Shown here one piece after another: positions 20,990-61,083 of a stretch of 64,000 nucleotides of DNA. The notes under the pieces are model-generated. The model saw nothing but the letters and a program-made list of their open reading frames with translations. It was not told the DNA's origin and did no database searches. Position numbers and translations under genes: made by a program. The DNA is taken from contig NZ_JAGKQQ010000001.1 in the NCBI RefSeq assembly GCF_017939745.1, forward strand, positions 4,216,001-4,280,000, written 5' to 3'. The DNA is from Gemmata palustris. Its GTDB lineage: Bacteria; Planctomycetota; Planctomycetia; Gemmatales; Gemmataceae. The number at the start of each line of letters is the position of its first letter. Position 1 is the stretch's first letter.

Positions 20990-21320
20990 GCCGAGGGCGG
21001 CTCGTTTTGGGACCGCCGTGGCACAGTGACTTGGACGAGCCGCGACCACAAGGGAGCGGGAAGCGGCTCCCCGACGTTGAGTTCGGCGCACAAAGGAACT
21101 GGGAATCGCCGTGGCACAGTGACTTGGACGAGCCGCGACCGCAAGGGAGCGGGAGGCGGCTCGCCGACGTTGAGTCCAGCACACAAAGGAACTGGGAATC
21201 GCTGCCCCGCTCCCTTGCGGTCGCGGCTCGTTACGAGGAGCGGCGTGCCCCGCGCCCTTGCGGTCGCGGCTCGTTAAAGGGAGGACAGTGCCCCCACTCC
21301 CTTGCGGTCGCGGCTCGCTA
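20990..21320. repeat. Family A repeat array upstream of kdsD
   Basis: Five cores occur: two forward (21035-21060 and 21128-21153) and three reverse (21205-21230, 21249-21273 and 21293-21318). The segments between carry the family's spacer with GCGCACAAAGGAACTGGG and GTGGCACAGTGACTTGGACG. The first and second units are near-identical for about 90 bp, so the array grew by duplication. The remaining 345 bp to kdsD hold short repeats of GTTAGTGATTGTTAGCC type and no gene. Confidence 0.9.
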
Positions 21321-21665
21321 CGGGGGGAGCATCGCGACGCCCCAGGATTTCGGGCCACAAGAGGCGGTAAGTATTCGCGAAATAGCGGTTCCAGAGTTGG
21401 CAATTGTTAGCCGTTGTTAGTGACCGGCGCGGGTCGCCGGAAGACGCCAACAACGCCGAATGACTTGAAATCTCAGTAGTTAGTGGGGTTCACACCCGGC
21501 GCGGCATCCGAGGAATGCCCCCAGGGTCGAAAATGTTAGTGATTGTTAGCCGAGCCCGGGACGCGAGCGGAAATCAGCGAATTTTGCTTCCAGTGGACTG
21601 AAGCTCGAGTGTTACCGGCTCGTCACCAATTGGGACCGAGATCATCGTTTCACCCGCGTGCATCC

Positions 21666-22712
21666 ATGCCTGACTCCACCGAATCGGCGTTCGACAAGAT
21701 CGATTACGCGCGGCGCGTCCTGCGGGCCGAGGCCGCGTCGCTCGACGTCGTTGCCGGGCGCCTCGATGACGGCTTCAACCGGGTCGCGGACGCGCTGTTC
21801 GCGTGCCGCGGGCGCGTCGCGGTGATCGGCGTGGGCAAATCCGCGGACGTGGGTCAGAAGACCGTCGGCACGTTCAACTCCACCGGCACCCGGGCCTACA
21901 TACTCGACGCGACCCGCGCCGTTCACGGCGACCTCGGGAGCATTCACCCGGACGATGTCGCCCTGCTGCTCTCGCACAGCGGCGAGTCGGAAGAACTGGT
22001 CCGGCTACTCGGCCCGCTGAAGAAGCTCGCGTCGTCCTTACTGGCGATCACGAGCAGCGCGGGGAGCGCGCTCGGCCGCGCCGCCGACGCCGCCATCGTG
22101 TACGGCCCGATCAAAGAAGCGTGCCCGCTCGCGCTGGCGCCGAGTACCAGCACCACGGTGATGCTCGCGCTCGGCGACGCGCTCGCGTTCACGCTGCTCG
22201 AACAGCGCCAGTTCACCGCCGACGAGTTCGCGAAGTTCCACCCGGCCGGGTCGCTCGGGCGCAAACTCGCTCTCGTTTCCGAATTGATGCGCCGGGGGAG
22301 CGAGCTCCGCATCGCGGCCCAGACGGACACGGTGCGCGAGGTGTTCGCGAAAGTCCGGCACACCGGCCGGCGCACGGGCGCGATCATGCTCGTGGACGCC
22401 GACGGGCGGCTCGCGGGGCTGTTCACCGACAGCGACCTCGCCCGCCTCTTCGAGAACCGCGAGGACCGGCTCCTGGACGCGCCCGTCGCGCACGTGATGA
22501 CGCACGCGCCGGTCGTGATCGCGCCCGAGTCGCGCGTAGCGGTCGCGCTGGATGTGCTGCGGGCACGGAAGTTCAGCGAACTGCCCGTGGTGGACGAAGC
22601 CGGCCGGCCCGTCGGAATGCTCGATATTACCGATCTGATCGGACTCGACCCGCTGGCCGGGGGCGCGGATTCCCGGCCGGCGCTGCGCCTGATCGACCGC
22701 AAGAGCGCGTAA
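21666..22712 (+). CDS. kdsD: Arabinose-5-phosphate isomerase
   Basis: The 348-residue product matches KdsD: an N-terminal SIS domain (about residues 40-190) with GVGKSADVGQK, the HGDLG motif and LSHSGESEE, then two CBS domains (about 215-340). It converts ribulose 5-phosphate to arabinose 5-phosphate, the first step in Kdo synthesis for lipopolysaccharide. It is cytoplasmic. kdsC follows 4 bp after the stop, and the giant OstA-like gene comes next, the same order as kdsD-kdsC-lptC in enterobacteria. The ATG at 21666 precedes a typical short N-terminal helix; an upstream frame extension has no recognisable content. Confidence 0.93.
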   Translation: MPDSTESAFDKIDYARRVLRAEAASLDVVAGRLDDGFNRVADALFACRGRVAVIGVGKSADVGQKTVGTFNSTGTRAYILDATRAVHGDLGSIHPDDVALLLSHSGESEELVRLLGPLKKLASSLLAITSSAGSALGRAADAAIVYGPIKEACPLALAPSTSTTVMLALGDALAFTLLEQRQFTADEFAKFHPAGSLGRKLALVSELMRRGSELRIAAQTDTVREVFAKVRHTGRRTGAIMLVDADGRLAGLFTDSDLARLFENREDRLLDAPVAHVMTHAPVVIAPESRVAVALDVLRARKFSELPVVDEAGRPVGMLDITDLIGLDPLAGGADSRPALRLIDRKSA

Positions 22713-22716
22713 AGTG

Positions 22717-23247
22717 ATGCAGACGTCCGACCTCTCCCAGCGCGCCGCGGCCATCGAGCTCCTGCTCCTCGACGTGGACGGCGTCCTCACCGACGGCCGC
22801 GTGGTCTACGCCGACGACGGGCGCGAGCTCAAATTCTTCCACGTGCGCGACGGGTCGGGGTTGAAGTTGTGGCGCGCCGCGGGTAAGCGGGCGGCCATCG
22901 TTTCGGGACGAGATTCGCGCGCGGTGGAGCGCCGGGCCGCCGAACTGGGCATCCACCCGGTTCTCCAAGGCCGCGAGAACAAGCTCCGCGCGTTCGAGGA
23001 CGTGCTGGCCCAGACCGGGCTGAACCCGGAGCAGGTGTGCGCGATCGGGGACGACCTCCCCGACGTGCCCGTGCTACGGCGGTGCGGGCTGGCGGCCGCG
23101 GTCGCCGATGCGTGCCCGGAAGCGCGGGCCGCGGCCCATTACGTGACCGCGGTCCCGGGCGGGCACGGGGCCGTGCGCGAGCTGATCGAGTGGCTACTGA
23201 GGGCACAGGGCCGGTGGGCCGAAGTGACCGCCGGCTACGCCAACTAG
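22717..23247 (+). CDS. kdsC: Kdo-8-phosphate phosphatase (HAD family)
   Basis: The 176-residue protein is a HAD-family phosphatase with LLLLDVDGVLTDGRV (nucleophile DVD), VSGRDS in motif II, KLRAFEDVL with the conserved Lys, and GDDLPDVPVL as motif IV. Length and motifs fit KdsC, which releases phosphate from Kdo 8-phosphate. Context with kdsD strongly supports this. A GTG at 22714 overlaps closely and could also serve; ATG at 22717 is preferred. Only 4 bp separate it from kdsD, so the two are surely one operon. Confidence 0.92.
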   Translation: MQTSDLSQRAAAIELLLLDVDGVLTDGRVVYADDGRELKFFHVRDGSGLKLWRAAGKRAAIVSGRDSRAVERRAAELGIHPVLQGRENKLRAFEDVLAQTGLNPEQVCAIGDDLPDVPVLRRCGLAAAVADACPEARAAAHYVTAVPGGHGAVRELIEWLLRAQGRWAEVTAGYAN

Positions 23248-23269: not shown

Positions 23270-23560
23270 CGGACTGGACGAGCCGCGACCGCAAGGGAGC
23301 GGGAGGCGGCTCCCCGACGTTGAGTCCAGCACAAAGGAGCCGGGACTCGCCGTGGCACAGTGACTTGGACGAGCCGCGACCGCAAGGGAGCGGGAGACGG
23401 CTCCCCGACGTTGAGTTCGGCGCACAAAGGAACCGGGAGTCGCTGCCCCGCTCCCTTGCGGTCGCGGCTCGTTACGAGGCGCGGCGTGCCACGCTCCCTT
23501 GCGGTCGCTCGTTAAAGGGAGGGCAGTGCCTCCCGCTGCCTTGCGGTCGCGGCTCGCTAC
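23270..23560. repeat. Family A repeat array between kdsC and the OstA-like gene
   Basis: Two forward cores (23278-23304 and 23369-23396) and three reverse cores (23445-23470, 23491-23513 and 23532-23557) form a block much like the one at 20990-21320, including the same spacer sequences in the same order. It splits an otherwise tight operon, with the next start codon 37 bp away. Confidence 0.9.
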
Positions 23561-23596
23561 AGAGCCTGAAATAGGCTAATAACCCTGGAGTGAACG

Positions 23597-26500
23597 GTGC
23601 TGACGCCCCGGCGAACGATGTTGTTGCTCGCGGGCTTCGTGCTGTTCGCCGGCGCGTATGCCGTTTACGCGCAGCTCCTCGGCTGGCTCGACGGGCTGCC
23701 CCAACTCCCCGCGGCCGCGCTCGTGCGGAGCACCGGGGTCTTCGCGCCGCCCGAGCGCCCGGCCGTCGCCCCGACCCAGCAGAGGTTGATCGAAGCGTTC
23801 GGCGAGAACAGCCCCGAAACGAACGACTCGCACTACCTGATGCAGTTCCTGCTCCCGAGCGGCGATTCGTCCGTGCTGATCGCGTCCGGGATGCCGCCAG
23901 ACAAACCCAACTCGCACCGCGTGACCCTCTCGCCGTTCAGCATCGCGGTGTTCAGCAAGGCGAAGGCCGCGCACCTGCGCCAGCCCGGTGAGGTGGCGGA
24001 GATCAGTACGGCGCACGCGGACAAGGGCGTCCTCGAGTTCGATCGCGTCATCAACAACATGGCCGACATGAAGAAGGCGCTGCTCTTGCGCGTCGAACTC
24101 GTCAGCGACTTCGAGCAGGCGCTCCCGGACCCGCGCCGCGGGGTCGTTCACATCACCAACAATCAGCGGTCGAGTGACCCGAACCGGTCCCTGGTGCTCC
24201 GCACCGTCGGCCCGGTGTTCTACCGCAACCCGAAAAACGTCGTCGGGACGGACGCCGCGAAAGCGCCGGACTTCTGGACCGACGCCCCGGTCGAAATCGT
24301 GGACCGCCAGAACTTGCCGCGGCCGGTCGGTGCGGCGGCCCCGGTCACCGCGCCGACCAAGAGCGAGGACAACCGCAACACGAGCGCGATCGCGGCGATC
24401 TTGAGCGGCCAGCGCCTCCCGCCGCCGACGATCACCGCGATCGGGCTCCGCGTGTACCTGGAACCCGACCCGCCGCCCGGCCAGCCCAAGAAGGAGCCGC
24501 AGCCCGGCACGAGCACCGTCAACGGCGTGCGCCGGATCGAGTTCCAGGAACAGGTGGTGATGAACCTGTGGGTGGACAACGGCCAATCGATCACGGGCGG
24601 CCCACCTCCGGCGCAACCGGGCGGGGCGAGCGCGCCCAAGAGCAACGGCCTCGCACTCGTTCCCCCTCCGGCGGCGATCGTCGGCATCACGGGGGGAATC
24701 GGTCCGGCCGCGTACAACGTGCGGCTCATGGACCGCGCGCTGCTCCAGATCGATACCCGCGGCTCGTTCGCCTACGACGCGGGCAAGTCGCTCGCGCGGT
24801 TCGACGTGGTCCCGCACTCGGACCCCAACCTGCCCAACGACGTGCAGGTGACGAAGATCCCCGCGCGGGGCGGCACGAGCAGCTTGTTCAGCCAGGTGCT
24901 CGAGCTGGAATTCAACGGCTCCCCGACCGGCAACGCGCGCCCGGCCAATTCGCCCGCGATCAAGCGGCTCCACGCCTGGACGACCACGCCGGGCCGGTAC
25001 GTCACGCTGGAGTCGCAGGGGGACACCGCGCCGAGCACCCCCGGGGCCACACAGAGCGCCAGTTCCACACAAGCCTACGGCCAGGATCTCGTTCACGAAC
25101 AGGCCGCGAGCCGGATGATTCTGACGGGCTACCCGCTCTACGTGGTGAGCGACCGCAACATCCTCACGGCCGGTAGCGTACAGACCGCGGCGACGCTCAC
25201 CACGGAACCGGGACCGCCGATCGCCCCCGCGCCCGGGCTCCCGCCAGTACGCAAGACGCAAATGACCGTGCGCGGCGCCGGGGAAGTGAAGCTGTTCGAC
25301 GCGGTCAGCAAGGGCTACACGCTCGCCGCGTCGTGGAAGACCTCGCTCGTGCAATCGAAACAGGTCATTAACGAGCGCGAGCAGGACTTGTTCATATTCA
25401 CCGACGACGCGAAGCTCGAAGACTTGAGGGCGGACTACTGGCTCAAGGGCACCGTACTCAAACTGTGGCTGCACCCGCGGGCCGAACCGCCCGCGGACGG
25501 GAAGGTAGCGAGCGGCGAACAGCCCAAACCGGCGCGCGCCGAAACTCCGGCGGGTGCCGACGGGAAGGTGGCGAGCGGCGGACAGCCCAAGCCGGCGCGC
25601 GTCGAGGCCGTCGGAAAGGTGTCGAGCCACTCCACGGATTACGACATCAAAGAGGCGGAGCAACTCACGGTCCACTTCAGCGACGCGGACCCCGTCGCAG
25701 TTGCGGTCGCGCAACCGGGCAAGCCCGTATCGCCCGATGCGGCCGCGGCCGGTCCCCCCGCAGGGCCGATGCCCCCCGTGGCTCCCGGTGCGGGGGACGC
25801 GCCGAAGGCGCCCGAGCCGATCGCGAAGGCACCGGAGAAACCGAAACCGCCGTTCGAGATTCGCGCCAAGACCATCGAGACGTTCGTCAAACGGATACCG
25901 GTCGCGCCCGCATCAAACAACCCGGTTGCCGATAAGCCCGCCGCCGACAAGCTCGCTGCGGACAAGGCCGCGGAACCGCCCGCCGCGAAGTACCAACTCG
26001 ACCGCGCCCGGTGCGAGGACAACGTGTCCGTACACCAGGAGCCGCTCGAACCCGGTAAGCCGCGCGGCATCGACATCTTCGGGCGCCTGCTCCTGATCGA
26101 CGGCGCGGCGGACGGGAGCGTGATGACCGTCTTCGGCTGGCCGAACAAGGACGGCGAAGTTCACCAGGAAGAGATGTCGCTCATCGGGCCGAAGATCGTG
26201 CTCAATCAGGTGCTCAACTCGGCGGCGGTCGACGGGCGCGGCGCGCTCACCATGCCGACCAAGAGCAACCTCGCGGGCGGCGAACTCGCTCAGCCGGAAG
26301 TGGTCGTCGTTCACTGGCGCGACTCGATGGCGTTCAACGGCGCGCTGCGCTCCGCGGTCTTTACCGGAAAGGTGTCCGCGCACCAGACCGCGCCCCAGGG
26401 CGAATCGTCGGTGCAGTGCCACGCGATGAACGTCATCTTCGACCGGCCGATTTACTTTAACCAGGCCCAGAAGAGGGCCGCGGCGCCGCCCCCCCCGCCG

Positions 26501-27379
26501 GACCCGAAAGACCCGAAGGCGGGCGCGGAGGCGAAGAAGGGCGAGAGCGCGAAGATTTACAAGATCCAGTGCTACGCGGCGCCGGCCGACATCGCCGACA
26601 ACAAGCACGAACTCGAGGTCGTTTACACCCAGGTGGATTACGACAAGAGCGGCAAACTGTTGAAAGCGCAATGGCTCTGGTGCCCGGACCTGATGATGGA
26701 GGCGCAAGCCCAAGATTCGGCCGGCGGAGAGAAGTACCAGCAAGTGTTCGCCGAGGGGCCGGGGCGGCTGCGCATCTGGCAGCGGGGCGAGGCGAACCCC
26801 GCCGGTCCGCCCGCGGGCGCGAAACCGATGGCGGGTGGCGCGAAGGCGGCCGCGAAACCGGCGAAGGACGAGCCGGAGATGAAGCTCACGTTCATCAAGT
26901 TCAGCGGCCGGATGACGGGCCGAGATAAGAAGTTGTACCAGTCGGCGGCGTTCAGCGACGAGGTCACGGCCATTCACGTGCCGGCCGACGCGCCCACGGT
27001 CAAAATCGACGAGTACAATCTGCCGCCCCGGGCGGTGCTCCTCACCTGTAACGACAAGCTCGAAGTCTGGAGCCACAAACAACAGGGCGACACCCCCGCG
27101 GCACAGAACATGACCGCGAGCGGGAACGCCTTTTTGCGGACGGACGATTACGAGGGGACCGCGATCACCATTGATAGCAAGGGCAACGCCGTCACGCTGA
27201 CCGGCAACGACGCGATCCCGGCCCGCGTCAGGAACCGCTTCGGCGGGGGCAACGAGCAGGTCGGCAAGGTCATTCTCTACGACCGCGCCGATGGCTCGTC
27301 GAGTGTCAAAGCCGGGTTCGGCGGTAGCATCGGGTCGGCGCCCAAGAGTGGTCCGGCAGGCCCGCCGCCCAAGAAGTGA
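23597..27379 (+). CDS. Giant OstA/LptC-like periplasmic protein, probable lipopolysaccharide transport component
   Basis: The 1260-residue protein has one N-terminal membrane helix (about residues 6-28) and an otherwise extracytoplasmic chain. Proline/alanine-rich linkers (for example about 620-700 and 710-790) separate beta-rich segments. Several segments resemble the OstA/LptA beta-jellyroll: SVHQEPLEPGKPRGIDIFG, AVDGRGALTMPT, AVFTGKVSAHQT and, near the C-terminus, YEGTAITIDSKGNAVTLTGND. LptC has the same design on a much smaller scale, and in enterobacteria lptC directly follows kdsC. I infer it belongs to the export bridge for lipopolysaccharide, perhaps fusing LptC- and LptA-like roles. 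The GTG start at 23597 has GGAG 6 bases upstream. Assignment is from pattern and context only. Confidence 0.72.
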   Translation: MLTPRRTMLLLAGFVLFAGAYAVYAQLLGWLDGLPQLPAAALVRSTGVFAPPERPAVAPTQQRLIEAFGENSPETNDSHYLMQFLLPSGDSSVLIASGMPPDKPNSHRVTLSPFSIAVFSKAKAAHLRQPGEVAEISTAHADKGVLEFDRVINNMADMKKALLLRVELVSDFEQALPDPRRGVVHITNNQRSSDPNRSLVLRTVGPVFYRNPKNVVGTDAAKAPDFWTDAPVEIVDRQNLPRPVGAAAPVTAPTKSEDNRNTSAIAAILSGQRLPPPTITAIGLRVYLEPDPPPGQPKKEPQPGTSTVNGVRRIEFQEQVVMNLWVDNGQSITGGPPPAQPGGASAPKSNGLALVPPPAAIVGITGGIGPAAYNVRLMDRALLQIDTRGSFAYDAGKSLARFDVVPHSDPNLPNDVQVTKIPARGGTSSLFSQVLELEFNGSPTGNARPANSPAIKRLHAWTTTPGRYVTLESQGDTAPSTPGATQSASSTQAYGQDLVHEQAASRMILTGYPLYVVSDRNILTAGSVQTAATLTTEPGPPIAPAPGLPPVRKTQMTVRGAGEVKLFDAVSKGYTLAASWKTSLVQSKQVINEREQDLFIFTDDAKLEDLRADYWLKGTVLKLWLHPRAEPPADGKVASGEQPKPARAETPAGADGKVASGGQPKPARVEAVGKVSSHSTDYDIKEAEQLTVHFSDADPVAVAVAQPGKPVSPDAAAAGPPAGPMPPVAPGAGDAPKAPEPIAKAPEKPKPPFEIRAKTIETFVKRIPVAPASNNPVADKPAADKLAADKAAEPPAAKYQLDRARCEDNVSVHQEPLEPGKPRGIDIFGRLLLIDGAADGSVMTVFGWPNKDGEVHQEEMSLIGPKIVLNQVLNSAAVDGRGALTMPTKSNLAGGELAQPEVVVVHWRDSMAFNGALRSAVFTGKVSAHQTAPQGESSVQCHAMNVIFDRPIYFNQAQKRAAAPPPPPDPKDPKAGAEAKKGESAKIYKIQCYAAPADIADNKHELEVVYTQVDYDKSGKLLKAQWLWCPDLMMEAQAQDSAGGEKYQQVFAEGPGRLRIWQRGEANPAGPPAGAKPMAGGAKAAAKPAKDEPEMKLTFIKFSGRMTGRDKKLYQSAAFSDEVTAIHVPADAPTVKIDEYNLPPRAVLLTCNDKLEVWSHKQQGDTPAAQNMTASGNAFLRTDDYEGTAITIDSKGNAVTLTGNDAIPARVRNRFGGGNEQVGKVILYDRADGSSSVKAGFGGSIGSAPKSGPAGPPPKK

Positions 27380-33080: not shown

Positions 33081-33226
33081 CGAGCCGCGACCGCAAGGGA
33101 GCGGGGGGCGGCTCCCCGGGTTACCTTGAGATCACCCGCGGGCGGGCAGTGCCTCCCGCTCCCTTGCGGTCGCGGCTCGTTACGAGGCACCGCGTGCCTC
33201 CCGCTCCCTTGCGGTCGCGGCTCGTT
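33081..33226. repeat. Family A repeats
   Basis: There is one forward core (33081-33105) and two reverse cores (33153-33179 and 33200-33225) in the gap between the Rieske gene start and the CYTH gene. The forward and first reverse copies form a hairpin with a loop of about 50 bp. Confidence 0.9.
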
Positions 33227-34775: not shown

Positions 34776-35033
34776 CGAGCCGCGACCGCAAGGGAGCGGG
34801 GCCGAGACTTCTCGGTGTTGAGGTTTGGGGGTTCCTATTTACGAGCCGCGACCGCAAGGGAGCGGGGCCGAGACCTCTCGGTGTTGAGTTGGGGTAGCAA
34901 GGGACGGGTGGCGCCCCCGCTCCCTTGCGGTCGCGGCTCGTTTCGCGCGCTGTGCTACAGCTCCCACGGTTCCTTTGTGCGCCGGGTTCAACACCGGGGA
35001 GGCGCCACCCGCTCCCTTGCGGCCGCGGCTCGT
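34776..35033. repeat. Family A repeats between panC and mgtE
   Basis: There are two forward cores (34776-34800 and 34842-34866) and two reverse cores (34915-34940 and 35009-35032). The forward units are separated by a duplicated spacer with CCGAGACTTCTCGGTGTTGA. The reverse side carries CTTTGTGCGCCGGGTTC as elsewhere. No gene lies here. Confidence 0.9.
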
Positions 35034-36823: not shown

Positions 36824-37052
36824 ACGAGCCGCGACCGCAAAGGGCGGAAGGCACGGTAACCCGTGGCACGCTGTGCCTCGTAACGAGCCGCGACCGCCAG
36901 GGAGCGGGGTAGCGATTCCCGGTTCCTTTGTGCGCCGGGCTCAAGGGAGTCGCTGCCCCGCTCCCTGGCGGTCGCGGCTCGTTTGCCCGCAACACTCGTG
37001 ATGCGCCTGATTCCGGCGCCCACGCGCCCACGCCCTTGCGGTCGCGGCCCGA
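36824..37052. repeat. Family A repeats after mgtE
   Basis: Two forward cores (36824-36845 and 36883-36908, the latter with the variant CGCCAGGGAGCG) and two reverse cores (36956-36981 and a partial one at 37029-37052) are present. The remaining sequence to 37158 includes AATTGTTAGCCAATTGT near 37101-37117, which resembles motifs near 21400-21545. Confidence 0.85.
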
Positions 37053-45310: not shown

Positions 45311-45886
45311 TCAGAAGGCAAACGCATCAGTTTTAAGCCCCGATAGGGGCGGCCGCGAGTAGCCAGGGGTGGAGCGCCGCGCAACCCCTGGCGGGCTGCC
45401 CTCGTTGTAGCGGTATGACGAGCCGCGACCGCAAGGGAGCGGGAGATCTCCGCGATCCCGGCGCTCGCACCTTACACACGGGATGCCCCTGCACCCGCTC
45501 CCTCGCGGTCGCGGCTCGTCAAACCACTTTGAACCACGGGTCGCGTGGTCCGCGCACGCGGCCAGCACCACGCCCGTGAAGTAGTAGCCGAGATTCACCA
45601 CAGAAAAGGTCATGCCCAGGAACCAGCGCACCAAAAACACGCGCTGGTTTTCGGCCGGGATGCCCGTCAGTTTGAACAGCTCGACCGCCAGACAACTCGC
45701 GAACGCAATCACGGCGATGAACAGCGGTGACTTGCGGATAAACAACATGCCCAGAGCGAGATAGGCGGCCACGGCATAGAGAACCTCCCCGAGAACCCGG
45801 TCCCAAAGGAACCAGCCCGTCGGGTACAGCCGGGACGCCAGACCGAGTGCCACCGTGACTGCAAGGGCCAACAACAAACGAATCAT
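45311..45886 (-). CDS. DUF2809 membrane protein with repeat-encoded C-terminus
   Basis: Residues 1-120 match DUF2809: four predicted membrane helices with LYPTGWFLWDRVLGEVLYAV, LAVELFKLTG and QRVFLVRWFLG. This family is normally about 125 residues. Here the frame runs on for about 70 residues (WFDEPRPRGSG, LPLPCGRGSS) that are entirely the family A repeat read in frame. The tail is probably not functional. It suggests that repeat DNA replaced the original stop codon. The ATG at 45886 is the only good start. Confidence 0.78.
   Translation of the reverse strand: MIRLLLALAVTVALGLASRLYPTGWFLWDRVLGEVLYAVAAYLALGMLFIRKSPLFIAVIAFASCLAVELFKLTGIPAENQRVFLVRWFLGMTFSVVNLGYYFTGVVLAACADHATRGSKWFDEPRPRGSGCRGIPCVRCERRDRGDLPLPCGRGSSYRYNEGSPPGVARRSTPGYSRPPLSGLKTDAFAF
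45418..45520. repeat. Family A palindrome inside the DUF2809 reading frame
   Basis: A forward core (45418-45443) and a reverse core with the G variant (CTCGCGG, 45495-45519) form one hairpin with a loop of about 50 bp. It lies inside the annotated 3' part of the DUF2809 gene. Confidence 0.9.
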
Positions 45887-49250: not shown

Positions 49251-49500
49251 ACGAGCCGCGACCGCGAGGGAGCGGGTGCTGAGGCGCCCCGCGTGTTAGA
49301 AGCAGAAGGAAGAGCCGCGGATTACACAGATCACGCGGATCAGACAAACGCGCGTGTTATAGTCCTGGCGGGCTCCCCTCGTCGTAGTGGCTTGACGAGC
49401 CGCGACCGCGAGGGAGCGCCGTGCAGACGCCCGATGTATTGGGTGTGAGCACCGGGAACCGCGGAAGCCTCCCGCTCCCTCGCGGTCGCGGCTCGTAAAA
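49251..49500. repeat. Family A repeats (G-variant) downstream of the TIGR02996 gene
   Basis: Forward cores at 49251-49276 and 49393-49418 and a reverse core at 49472-49497 all carry the CGCGAGGG variant of the core. Between them is TGACGAGCCGCG-type linker. No gene lies in the gap (49207-49548). Confidence 0.9.
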
Positions 49501-60910: not shown

Positions 60911-60946
60911 GCCAGCACACTTCCACACTCATCGGCCCTGGCGCCC

Positions 60947-61083
60947 CCGCTCCCTCGCGGTCGCGGCTCGTAAGGAGGCTCGGACGAGCCGCGACCGCGA
61001 GGGAGCGGGAGGCACTCCCGCACGCGAGGATCTCATGGTAACCCCGGGGAGCCGCGCCCCGCTCCCTCGCGGTCGCGGCTCGT
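60947..61083. repeat. Family A repeats (G-variant)
   Basis: Cores at 60947-60970 (reverse), 60983-61009 (forward) and 61058-61082 (reverse) carry the CGCGAGGG variant; the reverse and forward copies form two overlapping hairpins just after a family C hairpin. Confidence 0.9.

Follow-up and report, generated by a model that had tools for sequence, protein, structure and literature searches.

The genome of Gemmata palustris (9.23 Mb on three contigs, with Gemmata, Limnoglobus and other Gemmataceae as relatives among the named genome records) contains directly downstream of kdsD and kdsC a gene for a giant protein which, in all likelihood, is a one-piece periplasmic Lpt bridge, with LptC and several LptA units fused into a single chain carrying lipopolysaccharide (LPS) to LptD. 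In the established Lpt pathway, LPS is extracted by LptB2FG and the jellyrolls of LptC, LptA and the N-terminal domain of LptD form a slide. A sequence-only reading of the window, i.e., the complete 64,000-nucleotide stretch of DNA analyzed, had already proposed a fused or repeated bridge as a new form of LPS export. This proposal is supported, although the bridge is found class-wide and also in other classes of the phylum, and is composed of an LptC domain plus LptA modules.

Locus and distribution of the giant gene

The third reading frame after kdsD and kdsC, deduced to encode 1260 residues, is a real gene, as is evident from its GTG start with a preceding GGAG motif (Table 1), a GC content of 66/49/88% at the three codon positions and full-length orthologs (1036–1330 aa) sharing 26–77% identity with the window protein in the sampled genomes of the family. 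The order kdsD-kdsC-lptC, which the sequence-only reading had pointed out for enterobacteria, is indeed present in E. coli MG1655, where the genes are arranged as kdsD-kdsC-lptC-lptA-lptB. For kdsD, the true start is probably located near position 21663. The distance between kdsC and the giant gene amounts to 350 bp compared to about 20 bp in a relative of the same genus, due to dispersed repeat copies lying in between. This repeat element, with the core GAGCCGCGACCGCAAGGGAGCGGG, occurs in 26 copies within the window versus none expected by chance, often as facing pairs, and was located at positions 21037–21316, 23280–23555, 33082–33223, 34777–35031, 36885–36980, 45420–45517, 49253–49494, 60946–61081 and 6117.

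Table 1. Features of the kdsD-kdsC-giant gene locus, in window positions; residues refer to the giant protein.
Feature	Position	Strand	Basis or remark
kdsD, arabinose-5-phosphate isomerase (KpsF/KdsD family)	21543..22712	+	SIS + CBS; TIGR00393 over cut-off
kdsC, Kdo-8-phosphate phosphatase (YrbI family)	22714..23247	+	TIGR01670 167 bits, over cut-off
Dispersed repeat copies between kdsC and giant gene	23280..23555	.	Not part of the system
GGAG, ribosome-binding-like, 6 bases before the GTG start	23587..23590	+	Sequence
Giant LptC-LptA(n)-type protein gene	23597..27379	+	1260 aa, GTG start
Single N-terminal membrane helix, residues 7–27	23615..23677	+	Hydropathy; helix 4–27 in ortholog model
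LptC-like domain, residues 101–324	23897..24568	+	Profile-profile match 96%, 115 columns
OstA/LptA-type module 1, residues 348–522	24638..25162	+	Profile match 97.5%; LptA 8gaj_A Z 8.7
OstA/LptA-type module 2, residues 556–682	25262..25642	+	Profile match 92%; LptA 2r1a_C, LptC 6mit_C
Ala/Pro-rich linker, residues 700–800, 48% A+P	25694..25996	+	Composition; low pLDDT
OstA/LptA-type module 3, residues 735–867	25799..26197	+	Profile match 65–87%; boundaries uncertain
OstA/LptA-type module 4, residues ~831/878–1030	26228..26686	+	Profile match 88–97.6%
OstA/LptA-type module 5, residues ~1066–1218	26792..27250	+	Profile match 96–98%; ortholog PF03968 matches here; LptD-N 4q35 and LptA 2r1a in ortholog model

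By protein search, the giant gene was detected in 89 of 95 genomes of the family, including all 66 of good quality, and a profile of 33 family orthologs (A1) recovered it class-wide in 291 of 298 genomes (268 of the 273 good ones; 154 of 156 genera). Detailed reading of 35 family loci shows kdsC immediately next to the giant gene in 34 and kdsD present in 32 cases, two of the three loci without kdsD being contig ends, and no conserved gene follows downstream. Likewise, of 20 loci taken from further families of the class, 19 have kdsD directly upstream, the exception again representing a contig end, and 13 have kdsC placed between both genes. The retention of kdsD upstream across family and class loci defines kdsD-(kdsC)-X as a class-wide core locus, and the giant protein is a class-wide core protein and no peculiarity of the Gemmata palustris genome. 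The lack of a conserved kdsD/kdsC neighborhood in relatives, named in advance as a finding that would refute the bridge, was thus not encountered, as the neighborhood is kept in the family and the class alike and also in the majority of the members sampled from other classes. Six class loci (L121, L125, L126, L128, L138 and L139) gave no sign of kdsC in the interval separating kdsD from the giant gene; its role may be filled there by a kdsC located elsewhere or by a different phosphatase.

Membrane anchor and linkers

As had been read from the sequence, hydropathy analysis of the giant protein gives one hydrophobic segment at the N-terminus and none elsewhere above threshold, and the same helix is present in 32 of 33 orthologs. 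From the basic residues preceding it, an orientation with the N-terminus inside and the C-terminal part in the periplasm is inferred. A conserved signal-peptidase site was not seen at this helix. Y24, G29 and the motif DGLP (residues 32–35) just past the helix are conserved. The linkers, previously described as proline-rich, are present but are Ala/Pro-rich (19–48% A+P) and not purely proline-rich.

Sequence family and domain architecture

With HMMER, the window protein does not match any Pfam or NCBIfam family, including PF06835 and TIGR04409 for LptC as well as PF03968 and TIGR03002 for LptA, and a search of PDB sequences with the A1 profile (hmmsearch) was also without match. Hence, the sequence of the window protein does not by itself suffice to confirm the initial impression of several OstA-like segments. 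When the family orthologs are scanned one by one, however, PF03968 (LptA/LptD_N) matches 23 of 33 at a threshold E of 1 or less, with a best E of 4.6e-15, and of nine orthologs scanned singly eight exceed the curated cut-off. The best-matching stretches are found in more than one part of the protein, around residues 650–800 and 936–1148, with up to three separate stretches per protein. Moreover, the chain is internally repetitive: in an alignment of 53 rows from across the class, 65 of 300 pairs of non-overlapping 130-column segments show a probability above 80% when compared with each other, versus none of 300 controls with one side reversed.

Multi-domain fusions of LptC and OstA were encountered in other parts of the phylum as well. 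PF06835 matches 61 of 294 phylum genomes, with none from the class of Gemmata palustris among the matches listed, and nearly all of these matches reside inside frames of about 560–1750 aa. Twenty loci from other classes were read, most of them found via LptC matches and the rest via the A1 profile, and show kdsC adjoining the fusion gene in 19 and kdsD nearby in 14 cases. All ten proteins scanned bear an LptC domain over cut-off near the N-terminus, and PF03968 is over cut-off in five, with three to four stretches, and weaker in three. One of the fusion proteins (L152, 658 aa) passes the curated cut-offs of both LptC TIGR04409 and LptA TIGR03002. Fusion frames of about 1700 aa following kdsC were also seen in other classes (L159, L160), the latter with an N-terminal LptC match and a remainder without family match. 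A locus considered as an unfused, ancestral LptC plus LptA pair (L164) was discarded; it does have a 174-aa LptC, but inspection of the gene following it suggests an ApbE-like product and not LptA.

Comparison of the fusion profile with the class-wide profile of the giant protein resulted in a colinear match of 99.9% (E 1.1e-31) that spans residues 101–1218 of the window protein, and reversed controls reached at most 4%. The LptC domain alone matches only the N-terminal region assigned to it in Table 1 (reversed control at most 1%), and the OstA profiles match the five regions following it, that of module 3 being the weakest. As the hhalign E-values refer to a single comparison, it is the reversed controls that carry weight. 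In correction of the original picture, the giant protein consists of an N-terminal LptC domain and about five LptA-type modules and is not an enlarged LptC.

Predicted structure

The AlphaFold model of a full-length ortholog (L074, 1182 aa; 18-row alignment) consists of one N-terminal helix followed almost exclusively by beta strands (pLDDT 74.9, pTM 0.55), the whole-chain pTM value rendering the relative placement of the modules unreliable. Searching PDB chains with this model, Foldseek returns LptDE chains and LptA, the latter at a probability of 0.99–1.00, and also ranks LPD-3 (9cap_A), a long bridge-like lipid-transfer protein, as well as beta-rich giants of low probability. The lowest E-values on the full model belong to low-probability teneurin/Rhs hits, which were rejected (probability ≤0.41, rmsd near 40 Å), whereas the Lpt matches are specific, albeit individually modest. 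With VIA-align, the model matches the N-terminal domain of LptD (4q35) at Z 13.4 over 169 residues (3.5 Å), LptA (2r1a) at Z 11.5 and LptC (6mit_C) at Z 10.3, compared to Z 8.6 for the best unrelated row.

Since these three matches are all in the C-terminal part of the ortholog, leaving its N-terminal part untested, residues 40–710 of the window protein were folded alone (pLDDT 75.9, pTM 0.74). For this N-terminal half, LptD, LptC and LptA occupy the 19 leading VIA rows without exception, at Z values from 7.9 to 11.3 (4q35, Z 11.3; 6mit_C, Z 11.0; 2r1a_C, Z 10.2), and the first unrelated row follows at Z 7.8. The Lpt matches cover residues 335–697 approximately, with LptA 8gaj_A placed on about 328–518 and LptA 2r1a_C on about 488–681. 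Taken together, both halves are predicted to contain Lpt-type jellyrolls. The absence of a beta-jellyroll, which would have refuted the bridge, was accordingly not observed in the all-beta models, and the LptA-type fold anticipated from the sequence is found at the level of structure prediction; of the OstA segments claimed, about five are recovered by profile and structure, but none by HMMER in the window protein.

Remaining components of the Lpt machinery

The genes for LptB, LptF, LptG and LptD, which the sequence-only reading had left to be looked for elsewhere in the genome, are all present and are scattered apart from each other. LptB (C1:6013458) scores 302 bits against a cut-off of 240 bits, the next best candidate reaching 172, and two LptF/LptG permeases were found. 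LptD, a protein of 993 aa on contig C2, is over cut-off in the genome search (PF04453, E 2.5e-5) but just under it when searched as protein (E 4.7e-4), and PF19838 (LptD_2) has no match in the genome. The LptB protein (L149:9390–10748, C1) carries about 185 additional C-terminal residues made up of a Pro/Ala/Thr-rich linker and a short tail.

A separate LptC or LptA was not detected by Pfam in the Gemmata palustris genome, nor by Pfam and fusion-profile searches in the class. This bears on a different explanation, in which the giant protein functions as an enlarged LptC only, its extra modules being structural or regulatory, and the bridge is made by a diverged, separate LptA that escaped detection. 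A small LptA of this kind could be missed, as the genome is too divergent for PF03968, which even the giant protein escapes; moreover, the fusion profile at E 0.01 gives no match in the Gemmata palustris genome at all, so that a separate LptA is probably lacking there, without this being proven. On the other hand, the extra modules are LptA-type by both profile and fold. With a single exception, a frame of 421 aa at E 0.008, the fusion-profile matches listed for 119 class genomes are in frames of at least 872 aa, a size in line with the giant gene, and the class matches of PF03968 are in frames of 1004–1187 aa or in a 454-aa fragment of the giant gene, with one unidentified match (G205:C125) on a contig other than that of the giant gene. 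An enlarged LptC alone is therefore regarded as unlikely.

Proposed function of the fused bridge

In the one-piece bridge considered here, the N-terminal helix would anchor the chain in the inner membrane beside LptF/LptG, and the LptC-like domain would take over the LPS that the ABC transporter LptB2FG extracts. The slide on which LPS moves onward under pushing might then be built from about five consecutive beta-jellyroll modules of the LptA type, the last of which, at the C-terminus, would deliver LPS to LptD at its N-terminal jellyroll, with the Ala/Pro-rich linkers, above all that at residues 700–800, possibly acting as flexible joints. The contacts to LptFG and LptD, a continuous groove and transport itself are inferred from the established Lpt pathway, and the long disordered linker between modules 2 and 3 could interrupt such a groove. 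Further points against the bridge are the missing score of the window protein in the family libraries and the lack of biochemical evidence.

LPS as cargo is inferred as well. A one-piece bridge of the Lpt type mainly carrying another envelope lipid or glycolipid would be conceivable in view of the unusual envelope lipids of planctomycetes and of the Lpt apparatus with non-LPS substrate proposed for Treponema (PMC8407342). This appears improbable as well, given the strict linkage with kdsD and kdsC, representing the Kdo pathway, the expression of the LPS enzymes KdsA, LpxK and WaaA in the planctomycete Tuwongella immobilis (PMC8567305) and the lipid A that has been reported for Planctomycetes (as cited in PMC5394234).

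Returning to the bridge for LPS, the giant protein would close the gap in the predicted path between LptBFG and LptD in Planctomycetes, and the fused LptC-LptA(n) chain would represent a new variant of the Lpt system beyond the Gemmata palustris genome, important because of its phylum scale. In a survey of outer-membrane genes, Planctomycetes were among the phyla with a "largely reduced" Lpt system (PMC8871954), and a report of LptD in Gemmata dates from 2012 (PMC3422733). The present results suggest that, rather than being reduced, the bridge has undergone fusion and has diverged too far for profiles to detect it, and a fused one-chain bridge would explain why separate Lpt genes looked missing. 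A report on a natural LptC-LptA fusion was not found in the open literature, which is weak evidence as subscription papers were not covered.

It is tentatively proposed, with the balance leaning slightly against it, that a covalent bridge of fixed length has replaced the self-assembling LptC-LptA oligomer and that the number of modules sets the distance over which LPS is handed on. Chain length, with variants of 560–1700 residues in the phylum, would then set the reach and restrict export to sites where the enlarged, variable periplasm narrows to that length; a greatly enlarged and variable periplasm is possible in planctomycetes (PMC5394234). A fit of the giant protein to the planctomycete envelope remains conjecture. 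The phylum would offer a natural experiment, since the gene itself states how many LptA modules make up a bridge, a number still unsettled for E. coli with its oligomerizing LptA, and covalent joints would alter the action of drugs breaking the LptA-LptA contact.

Relation to known systems

Like LptC (PF06835/TIGR04409), the giant protein has a single N-terminal membrane helix, a periplasmic beta-jellyroll predicted after it and a gene position directly after kdsC, but comprises 1260 instead of about 190 residues, has more modules in the chain and is below Pfam detection. With LptA (PF03968/TIGR03002) and the N-terminal jellyroll of LptD it shares the predicted LptA-fold modules in series, as in LptA oligomers; in contrast to the soluble, oligomerizing LptA monomers, however, the chain is, by its sequence, covalent, membrane-anchored and connected by Ala/Pro-rich linkers. 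The fusions from other classes, e.g., L152, are found at the same locus and, in the best-resolved ones, show LptC followed by three or four OstA stretches, but are mostly shorter and less diverged, with domains recognizable by HMMER.

Bridge-like lipid transfer proteins and TamB/YhdP may be seen as analogous in possessing a long single-chain beta groove between two membranes, but no sequence relation was found, the giant protein is predicted to have Lpt-type jellyroll modules, and AsmA/TamB-type Pfam domains are absent from the window protein and from the 33 orthologs. A beta-rich envelope scaffold or an AsmA/TamB-type bridge merely resembling Lpt jellyrolls, for which the Foldseek ranking of LPD-3 and beta-rich giants might be invoked, is strongly disfavored by the Pfam LptA matches in orthologs, the LptC and LptA equivalog matches in same-locus fusions and the profile comparison with its clean reversed controls. 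Apart from the giant gene, a protein of 1136 aa (L053:4767–8174, C1) is encoded directly upstream of an lptF/G permease gene. It was rejected as LptD candidate, as it matches DUF748 (weakly, below cut-off) and LptD is on contig C2; by our own reading it is AsmA-like and possibly another intermembrane lipid bridge.
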